Assembly (NCBI GenBank): GCA_021778635.1
Contig: JAJYCD010000007.1
Location: forward strand, 1-64,000
Reading direction: 5' to 3'
DNA length: 64,000 bases
Source: Actinomycetes bacterium
GTDB lineage: Bacteria; Actinomycetota; Actinomycetes; Actinomycetales; Cellulomonadaceae
Program-made: the position numbers and the translations under genes
The notes under the pieces: model-generated
Database searches by the model: none
Told to the model about the DNA's origin: nothing
Seen by the model: only the letters and a program-made list of their open reading frames with translations
Shown here: in pieces, positions 57,814 through 60,504 of the stretch
How the letters are laid out: each line of letters begins with the position of its first letter
How positions within the stretch are numbered: position 1 is the first letter of the stretch

Positions 57814-57894
57814 TGCTCCGTCCGTGAGCGGTGGACCGCCGACGTGGTGTCCCCACCTCACAGCAGACCTTCGCAAGGACATCAGGAGGACATC

Positions 57895-58254
57895 GTGCGG
57901 CTCACCACGCTGCTCGACACGATGAACCAAGGCGGCTCAGGACCCTGGCCCCCCGACGAGTCATCGACCATCTCCGCCGACGAGGAACGTCGGCAGTTCG
58001 ACCGTGTCATCGCGGACCTCATCCCGTGCCGAGCCGGCGACCCCGAGCTCTGGTTCGCAGAGCAGTCCGCACAGGTCGAGCGGGCCAAGGCGCTGTGCCG
58101 CCAGTGCCCGCTCATGACGGGGTGCCTCGCGGGGGCGATCGAGCGCGCCGAGCCGTGGGGCGTCTGGGGCGGCGAGGTGTTCGTGGACGGTGTCGTCGTC
58201 GCGGTCAAGCGCGGCCGCGGTCGCCCACGCAAGACGCAGTCTCCGGCGGCGTGA
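57895..58254 (+). CDS. whiB7: WhiB7 redox-responsive antibiotic-resistance regulator
   Basis: A 119-residue WhiB-family Fe-S protein that binds SigA and activates intrinsic resistance genes. Cluster cysteines are Cys45, Cys68, Cys71 and Cys77 (IPCRAGD, LCRQCPLMTGC), followed by the G[V/I]WGG turn GVWGGE at 89-94. The AT-hook RGRGRPRK at 106-113 is the hallmark that separates WhiB7 from other WhiB proteins. GTG 57895 has AGGAGG 5 nt upstream. The 3' end overlaps the convergent ThiF-like gene by 50 bp, across the AT-hook codons. Confidence 0.95.
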   Translation: MRLTTLLDTMNQGGSGPWPPDESSTISADEERRQFDRVIADLIPCRAGDPELWFAEQSAQVERAKALCRQCPLMTGCLAGAIERAEPWGVWGGEVFVDGVVVAVKRGRGRPRKTQSPAA

Positions 58255-59383
58255 ACTCGAACGGGGTCATCTCGGACTGCGTGATCTCAGCCGGCGCGAT
58301 CTCAGCCGGCGCGATCTCAGCCGGCGTGATCTCGGAGGGCGCGTCGTCGCGGCGCGGGAGAGGGATCGCCCCGCACCCGCAGTCCGGGTGCACCGACCAC
58401 GACCGGACGCGCGGGACGGCCTCGGGGAGAGACACCTCGAGGCCGGCCCCGCGGACGGTCGGGACGCGGCCGTCCAGGTGTGCCAGGGCCTGAGCTGCGG
58501 CGAGGGACCCGGCCACCGCGGCGAGCGAGCTCTCCTCCGGACCGTGCGGGCGCGTTCTCGCGGCAAGCTGCGCGACGACGACGCCCCAGCGCTCGTCGAC
58601 GTCGGCGCGCCACAGGTCCACGCAGCGCAGGCACGGAGTCGCTCCCGGCACGACCAACGGCCCGACCAGGACGCCCGCCTCCTGGACGACGACGGACAGG
58701 TGGGGGATCCCGATCGCCATCGACAGGCGCGACCGCGCCGGGTCGGCTGCCCCGTGCTCGACGAGGACGAGAAGATCGGGTTCGCTGCGAGCAGGAGCGC
58801 GGGTGCGGACCGTGGCATTCGCGTCGTGCACGATCCGATGGGCTGCCTCGGCACGGGACGAGCCGACGTCGCGCGGGAGATAGCCCCCCACCCCGAGGTC
58901 GGCGCTCGTGACGAGGTCGTCGTCCTGGAGGAGGACCGTGCCGACGCCCGCGGCAGCGAGCACGACGGCGATCTGGAGCCCGAGCCGCCCGAGACCGGCG
59001 ACGCCCACGCTACGGGCGGAGCGTGCGCGCACGTGCGCGCCGCCGTCGCCGTCCTCGAGCACGGCGGACCACGCGCGAGCGTCACCGACCGCGCCGGAGA
59101 GCAGGGTCGCGGAGCCGGCCGAGGACGGACGGGGCGGGATCGGGCACACCACGCGCGCCTCGTCCAGGGTGCGAAGGAGAACCTCGACCCGCTCCGGCGC
59201 GAGGCCGTGGCGCGCGGCGGACGCCCGGAGCGACTCGAGCGTCGCGCCCGGCTCGGCCGCGGTCAGCACGTCGACCTCGACGTCGCTCAGGCCGGAGAGC
59301 CGTACGGCCCATCGCGGGTCGGTCCCGATCTGCACCTCACCGGGTGCGCGCCAGAGGAGATCGAGCCCGGGCCTCAGTCGCAT
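58205..59383 (-). CDS. ThiF/E1-like adenylyltransferase-family protein
   Basis: A 392-residue protein of the E1-like superfamily, whose members adenylate C-termini of ubiquitin-like or ribosomal peptides; TOMM cyclodehydratase partner proteins are relatives. The N-terminal ~90 residues resemble a peptide-recognition region. The Rossmann motif is GVAGLGRLGLQIAVVLA, then LLQDDDLV, and cysteine pairs CLRC and CGC could bind zinc. No substrate peptide, YcaO or sulfur-carrier gene is adjacent, so the substrate is unknown. The tail carries EIAPA repeats. ATG 59383 has AAGGAGG upstream. Confidence 0.75.
   Translation of the reverse strand: MRLRPGLDLLWRAPGEVQIGTDPRWAVRLSGLSDVEVDVLTAAEPGATLESLRASAARHGLAPERVEVLLRTLDEARVVCPIPPRPSSAGSATLLSGAVGDARAWSAVLEDGDGGAHVRARSARSVGVAGLGRLGLQIAVVLAAAGVGTVLLQDDDLVTSADLGVGGYLPRDVGSSRAEAAHRIVHDANATVRTRAPARSEPDLLVLVEHGAADPARSRLSMAIGIPHLSVVVQEAGVLVGPLVVPGATPCLRCVDLWRADVDERWGVVVAQLAARTRPHGPEESSLAAVAGSLAAAQALAHLDGRVPTVRGAGLEVSLPEAVPRVRSWSVHPDCGCGAIPLPRRDDAPSEITPAEIAPAEIAPAEITQSEMTPFEFTPPETASCVGDRGRA
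58281..58336. repeat. 15-bp repeats in the C-terminal tail of the ThiF-like gene
   Basis: Three to four 15-bp units related to GATCTCAGCCGGCGC encode EITPA/EIAPA units on the minus strand. They lengthen the tail that overlaps whiB7. Confidence 0.85.
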
Positions 59384-59742
59384 CGTCGTCCTCCTTGCCC
59401 GCGCCGGGTCGTCCGTGCGGGCTCGTCCGCACCGGGTCGTCCGCGCCGACGTCCCGTTCCGGCCCCGTGGTGGTTCGTGCGTGCCGGGCGACCCGTGCGG
59501 GTCGCCGCAGACCGGGGCCGATCGACCGTCCAGATCAATGCGGCCCGGCGCGCTCACTGTGGCACGGGCAGGGCGAGCCCGACCGGTTGTCCACAGGCCG
59601 CGGTGCGCGGGAGCGTCCGCGGCGGGGGGCGTCGTCCACGGAGTGTGGACCGAGGTGTGGACAAGTCCGGCAATCCTGGGGAAAAGATGACGGGAAGGTG
59701 AACAACGGGTCATCGGACGGTATGACCGGCTACGGTGCTGGC
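59384..59742. other. 359-bp divergent intergenic region
   Basis: No gene is seen. It holds loose GC-rich repeats of the type GGGTCGTCCG near 59400-59450, a DnaA-box cluster at 59587-59664, and the start-proximal -10 box of the metallopeptidase gene. Confidence 0.6.
59587..59664. promoter_or_regulatory. DnaA-box cluster
   Basis: TTGTCCACA (59587-59595) and its exact inverse TGTGGACAA (59656-59664) are perfect DnaA boxes in the actinobacterial form. Between them lie two 7-of-9 matches, TCGTCCACG (59632-59640) and TGTGGACCG (59644-59652, inverse). A less GC-rich stretch with GGGGAAAAGATGA follows at 59678. It could titrate DnaA or regulate the flanking genes; no dnaA, dnaN or gyr genes are near, so it is not the main origin. 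Confidence 0.6.
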
Positions 59743-60504
59743 GTGCACGCGAACAGCGAGCACGGTCCCGTCGAGGTGCGTCGCAGCCGGCGCCGACTGC
59801 GGACCGTGACGGCCTACCGCGAGGGCGACCGGACGGTGGTCGCTATCCCCGCGCGATTCACGCGCGCCCAGGAGCGCGAGTGGGTGCAGCGCATGCTGCG
59901 CCGGCTCGGCGACCAGGAGCGCCGACGGCGCCCGTCCGACGAGCAGCTCGCGACGCGGGCCACCGAGCTGTCGGCGCGCTACCTCGGCGGTCGTGCCGTA
60001 CCGGCGAGCGTGGCGTGGTCCGGGAACCAGGGACGACGCTGGGGCTCGTGCACGCCGTCGGACGGGAGCATCCGGATCTCCGACCGGGTCCAGGGGATGC
60101 CCCGCTGGGTGCTCGACTACGTGCTGCTGCACGAGCTCACCCATCTGGTGCACGCGGGTCATGGGCCCGACTTCTGGGCGCTGGTACGGGCCTATCCGCG
60201 GACCGAGCGCGCCCGTGGGTTCCTGGACGGCGTGACCTTTGCCCAGGAGGCCCTGAACCACGCGGCCGAGGAGAGCGGCGAGACTCACGACGAGGACGCC
60301 GACGTGATCGAGGAGGAGGTCGACGAGGACGCCGACCTCGACCCGGAGCCTGGCGCGGGCGCGGTCATCGACCTCGACACCGCAGCAGACGCCGACCGCG
60401 GCGCGGCAGCAGACCCCGGCACCGGCACCGCAGCAGACCCCGGTACCGGCGCCGCAGCAGACGCCGACAGCGGCGCGGCAGCAGACCCCGACGGGCGCGG
60501 CTAG
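59743..60504 (+). CDS. YgjP/M48-like metallopeptidase with acidic repeat tail
   Basis: A 253-residue protein. The core (about 10-165) matches the YgjP-type metal-dependent hydrolase family: GRRWGSCTPSDGSIRIS, then the zinc motif LLHELTHLVHAGHGPDFW (HExxH plus a third His). The last ~70 residues are acidic, with copies of AADPGTG. GTG 59743 lies 6 nt after TACGGT (59731-59736), so it is leaderless; the in-frame ATG 59722 would lie upstream of the start of transcription. The substrate is unknown. Confidence 0.85.
   Translation: MHANSEHGPVEVRRSRRRLRTVTAYREGDRTVVAIPARFTRAQEREWVQRMLRRLGDQERRRRPSDEQLATRATELSARYLGGRAVPASVAWSGNQGRRWGSCTPSDGSIRISDRVQGMPRWVLDYVLLHELTHLVHAGHGPDFWALVRAYPRTERARGFLDGVTFAQEALNHAAEESGETHDEDADVIEEEVDEDADLDPEPGAGAVIDLDTAADADRGAAADPGTGTAADPGTGAAADADSGAAADPDGRG
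60382..60495. repeat. Coding repeats in the metallopeptidase tail
   Basis: Imperfect in-frame units of about 24-27 bp around GCAGCAGACCCCGG encode AAADPGTG-like segments at the C-terminus. Confidence 0.8.

Follow-up and report, generated by a model that had tools for sequence, protein, structure and literature searches.

Four putative DnaA boxes stand within 78 bp (59587-59664) of the window, by which we mean the whole 64,000-nucleotide stretch of actinobacterial DNA analysed here, in the intergenic region between a ThiF-like gene on the minus strand (thiF below) and a YgjP-like gene on the plus strand (ygjP). Compared across related genomes they look like real DnaA binding sites, and we consider it very probable that they form a control region bound by DnaA, with divergent promoters on either side. 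An earlier note on this DNA had proposed a DnaA-regulated promoter, a datA-like titration locus or an ectopic initiation site. The first of these is supported by a fixed geometry between box and -10 hexamer, by an architecture shared with dnaA promoters and by conservation that follows thiF.

The locus and its boxes

The two perfect boxes in inverted order flank two 7/9 matches just as the earlier note had described, and the purine-rich stretch that it had placed just downstream is present as well (Table 1). Boxes 2 to 4 keep an exact 12-bp period (starts at 59632, 59644 and 59656) with 3-bp gaps, and the 64-kb window holds no perfect copy of TTGTCCACA besides boxes 1 and 4. This 9-mer is a high-affinity box listed for S. 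coelicolor and M. tuberculosis (Table 1 of PMC4285127, in excerpt).

Table 1. Features of the locus, with positions in the window
Feature	Position	Strand	Description
Box 1	59587-59595	+	TTGTCCACA, perfect; 9/9 columns invariant; minus strand reads TGTGGACAA; 34 bp before the predicted thiF -10 hexamer
Box 2	59632-59640	+	TCGTCCACG, 7/9; 9/9 columns invariant in three congeners
Box 3	59644-59652	-	CGGTCCACA, 7/9; 8/9 columns invariant; first half of double box
Box 4	59656-59664	-	TTGTCCACA, perfect; 9/9 columns invariant; second half of double box, separated from box 3 by 3 bp
Double-box pattern match	59644-59661		boxes 3 and 4
Purine-rich stretch	about 59678-59690		GGGGAAAAGATGA, after the boxes
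Predicted extended -10 of thiF promoter	59556-59564	-	TGCCACAGT; pattern match 59555-59596, minus strand
ThiF/E1-like gene	58205-59383	-	PF00899, E 7e-14; start codon tentative
Predicted -10 of ygjP	59731-59736	+	TACGGT, 6 bp before GTG at 59743
YgjP-like metallopeptidase-domain gene	59743-60504	+	PF01863, E 2e-20
Acidic C-terminal tail of YgjP-like protein	60380-60500	+	imperfect repeats (AADPGTGTAADPGTGAAADADSGAAADPDG)
WhiB-family gene	57844-58254	+	downstream of UvrD-like/HRDC helicase; RGRGRPRK tail

Leftward, beyond thiF, the genes encode a WhiB factor and a UvrD-like helicase carrying an HRDC domain; rightward, beyond ygjP, comes a zincin-like protein. We take the tail of the WhiB-family protein to be AT-hook-like and reminiscent of WhiB7. 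The nearest profile to the ThiF-like protein among solved structures is MccB, with E1 enzymes also near. Its PADLOC matches, to E1-E2 models, were weak and partial, and we did not take them as a sign of defence.

Clustered boxes beside a purine-rich stretch of lower GC content (a minimum of 0.55 in 40-bp windows across 59560-59779, compared with 0.73 for the whole window) are what one might expect of an ectopic initiation site. We find this idea barely credible, as the same 40-bp windows contain no strongly AT-rich unwinding element and the locus has no dnaA or dnaN gene context, its neighbours being thiF and ygjP. The cluster is indeed far from dnaA-dnaN, as the earlier note had it: dnaA, with flanking boxes of its own, is on another contig (C59) in the draft genome of the window (G000; 3.56 Mb, 160 contigs), and about 0.77 Mb away on a 4.40-Mb contig in the congener G001. 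Moreover, box 1 is explained by promoter geometry (see below).

Chance and conservation of the boxes

Perfect 9-mers of this kind had been expected to be rare by chance. Rare they are, with 11 in G000, but they are not clearly enriched genome-wide, since the reversed control pattern gave 8; single boxes in this genome are, therefore, near background. Boxes with at most one mismatch (180 versus 205 for the control) and the pattern TYRTCCACAGS (17 versus 17) pointed the same way, and genome-wide enrichment of single boxes, perfect or with one mismatch, was dropped as proof. As to clustering, which the earlier note had suggested checking, 11 sites placed at random would include a pair within 69 bp with odds of 0.002. 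Elsewhere in G000, a stretch of about 160 bp on contig C42 (1865-2025) holds four DnaA boxes with one mismatch each.

The four boxes hold their position and spacing across three congeneric genomes (G000, G001 and G002), where 35 of 36 box columns are invariant, compared with 18 of 36 in the linker between boxes 1 and 2 and 28 of 100 in the 100 bp upstream of box 1. Boxes and spacing have thus been kept while the linkers diverged, which looks like selection on the boxes. Judged from these alignments, conservation is stronger evidence for the boxes than the chance odds.

Box 1 and the thiF promoter

The earlier note had tied conservation of the cluster to the YgjP-like gene. We gathered the regions upstream of ygjP homologues (n = 111, almost entirely from the family) and scored a divergent thiF as close when it lay within 380 bp of ygjP. 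A DnaA-type box occurred in 49 of the 50 intergenic regions with a close divergent thiF (in 48 of them TGTGGA read towards thiF) as opposed to 8 of the 61 other ygjP upstream regions, some of which may hold a thiF missed by the short tblastn. Conservation with ygjP was, therefore, ruled out; the box tracks thiF instead.

The same held more widely. Of 97 thiF upstream regions from across the order and class, 75 had a box and 88 the TCCACA core within 150 bp, compared with a mean of 1.3 (largest 8) for the box and 5.8 for the core in 200 dinucleotide shuffles, and with 34 and 53, respectively, in 728 control windows from the same loci. The core was missing within 150 bp in 9 of the 97 regions, G000 being counted among these because of the greater distance between its box and the start codon. 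When named genomes were scanned with a ThiF alignment, 80 loci came up, of which 71 were kept after 9 with late-starting protein matches were dropped; this set partly overlaps the earlier one (some Cellulomonas, Luteimicrobium). Here a box lay within 200 bp in 59 of 71 and the core in 69 of 71. The site is thus conserved with thiF in the family, in the order and class, and in the named genomes. The closest named record, JAKBFW010000004.1, has a thiF locus 80% identical to this actinobacterial one and is titled 'Proteobacteria bacterium'; it is probably a mislabelled metagenome bin.

Distance to the promoter is equally constrained. When the thiF promoters were pooled with the family set (n = 155), TGTGGA read towards thiF in 129, and in these 129 the offset from the box to the hexamer of an extended -10 (TGnnAnnnT) fell at 33, 34, 35, 36 and 37 with 9, 24, 4, 54 and 5 counts (96 altogether), as opposed to 11 counts for all remaining offsets across 9-74. 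The offset in this window is 34. In the named genomes the peak was again at 33-37, with 41 loci at 33-38. Relative to the predicted thiF start the box would lie at about -48 to -38 (box 1 of the window at about -46 to -38), a usual place for an activator touching sigma. Relatives' thiF promoters mostly hold just the counterpart of box 1, and in some lineages the box is in the opposite orientation, as TTATCCACAG(G). By this predicted geometry, box 1 belongs to the thiF promoter.

At 17 of the named-genome loci the thiF promoter carries at least three boxes in the same orientation, with spacings of 21/22 + 32, 22 + 31 or 11 + 32 bp. These spacings are close to whole helical turns, so that the predicted boxes are helically phased. 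The records are named Micromonospora, Catellatospora, Longispora, Allorhizocola and Rhizocola, with one 'Micromonosporaceae bacterium'; we take the five named genera to be kin by their family placing. In Micromonospora thiF upstream regions (L423, L429, L430, L450 and others) the three are full 9-mers, TTGTCCACA or TTATCCACA, spaced 21 + 32 bp.

Box 1 also bears on whether the cluster is a datA-like locus that soaks up or resets DnaA, with the neighbouring genes incidental. Four boxes in 78 bp, including a double box, would suit such a role, and in S. coelicolor and B. subtilis initiation is known to be restrained by clusters of DnaA boxes; like these and E. coli datA, the present locus is an intergenic group of DnaA boxes outside oriC (PMC4585315, in excerpt). 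However, the same excerpt places those of S. coelicolor and B. subtilis close to oriC, and this locus is far from dnaA in the congener and on a contig other than that of dnaA in the draft genome. In addition, most relatives have box 1 as their single box, and there its distance to the thiF -10 is fixed. Titration is, therefore, unlikely as the main role, although it is possible for boxes 2 to 4.

Likeness to the dnaA promoter

The remaining boxes find their closest parallel at dnaA. The arrangement TGTGGA-N6-TGTGGA precedes dnaA in all 21 family and order genomes analysed; in 14 of these promoters an extended -10 follows the first box at 33-34 bp (the motif was not found at 33-34 in the other 7), and 8 of the 21 have a third, opposed box 12 bp upstream. 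Boxes 2 to 4 repeat this arrangement (> 12 < 12 <), except that box 2 ends in G, not A. A search for the double-box pattern in 39 genomes gave 157 matches, and its reversed control 43. G000 and G001 have exactly two matches each, the dnaA promoter and this locus, and G002 has these and one more site. As the reversed control in G000 also gave 2, it is the places of the matches, and not their number, that carry the argument.

Among known systems the locus comes close to autoregulated actinobacterial dnaA promoters, its box arrangement, its tandem double box with a 3-bp gap and its offset from box to -10 being those seen in relatives' dnaA promoters. It differs in that the genes controlled would be thiF and perhaps ygjP, and in its layout, with a solitary box 1 at the thiF promoter and the double box on the ygjP side. 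There is also a parallel in E. coli, where ChIP-seq showed that DnaA prefers box pairs 2-3 bp apart, a range that includes the gap seen here, and where double boxes 3 bp apart lie upstream of regulon genes (nrdA, polA, purH) and DnaA is used transcriptionally away from oriC; the target genes are different, and binding was measured there whereas the sites here are predicted (PMC11317965, in excerpt).

This likeness bears on a further alternative, namely that TGTGGA serves some other DNA-binding protein or is part of a promoter element recognised by a sigma factor, and that the resemblance to DnaA boxes is incidental. In its favor, TGTGGA is the most constant part of the site and keeps a fixed spacing to the -10, mostly in one orientation. 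We nevertheless judge it very unlikely for the following reasons: (i) the same module is found in dnaA promoters, and DnaA autoregulation is established in S. lividans and in mycobacteria, the latter reported for slow-growing species (PMC8203912, in excerpt); (ii) a sigma element would not allow the opposite-orientation box carried by some lineages; and (iii) full 9-mers occur in threes in Micromonospora. A different regulator, while possible, would have to explain the likeness to the dnaA promoter.

Other candidate sites emerged from these searches. Used as a probe for a wider regulon, the box/-10 promoter pattern gave 33 matches in 29 genomes compared with 8 for the control; judged by position and ORF, 10 of the 33 were at thiF, one at dnaA (G012) and one in the dnaA-dnaN region (G042), and the remaining matches in these 29 genomes did not resolve a conserved wider DnaA regulon. 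A double box is also conserved a few kb from dnaA (L354, about 1501-1518; G022:C4:399180-399197), reading TGTGGACAACTCTGTGGA, which, or close variants of which, occurs in G004, G006, G009, G011, G013 and G024 as well. In G022 it adjoins an ORF resembling DciA/DUF721 and presumably, by gene order, precedes gyrB; it is another candidate DnaA-controlled promoter.

The ygjP side

Hexamers TACGGT or TACCGT lie close before the ygjP start in many relatives, and the predicted ygjP transcript is probably leaderless. We also looked for a ygjP promoter with the dnaA geometry; there is no good -10 at 34 bp from the double box on the ygjP side, and direct control of ygjP is, for this reason, not claimed.

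A working model

We favor a scenario in which DnaA would bind box 1 and the double box. On box 1 it would most likely contact RNA polymerase, because this box is promoter-locked and is followed by an extended -10 but no clear -35; the ThiF-like gene would be switched by DnaA availability and its expression would follow free DnaA through the replication cycle. The predicted sign of control at box 1 leans, if only slightly, to activation, turning to repression once DnaA-ATP occupies every box. For E. coli nrdAB, activation by DnaA-ADP or by low DnaA-ATP is reported (PMC8203912, in excerpt). Boxes 2 to 4, as a cooperative array with 3-bp gaps and the same module as relatives' dnaA promoters, should raise occupancy. 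They could increase the DnaA present locally or, when DnaA-ATP is high, contribute repression, and an effect on ygjP is possible too.

Given that a DnaA-type site stands at its start in most of the related bacteria examined, the ThiF-like gene probably has a link to the cycle of replication. Tentatively, and with rather more doubt than confidence, we suggest that DnaA may directly control this ThiF/E1-like enzyme across Actinomycetes, where it would belong, like dnaA itself, to the core of the DnaA regulon; that the enzyme may link replication initiation to a step of adenylation or modification, possibly with feedback on replication or repair (its neighbours are the UvrD-like helicase, the WhiB factor and the YgjP/SprT-like protease); and that the dnaA-promoter module may have been added to the same intergenic region in this genus. 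In the literature searched, most subscription journals being outside its coverage, we found no title linking DnaA to this ThiF-like gene; the terms 'DnaA box' and 'ThiF' co-occur in one paper, on a Cupriavidus genome.

On its predicted sites the locus joins a known kind, the DnaA-controlled promoters, and what is unusual is its uncharacterised target and the depth of its conservation. That a DnaA-box promoter has been kept over the ThiF-like gene in most members of the bacterial class examined suggests a need for this gene that is timed with the initiation of replication. With one box, one -10 and one gene, it would offer a specific and cheap test of the transcriptional action of DnaA in actinobacteria, and it makes the ThiF-like gene a candidate new player in replication control.
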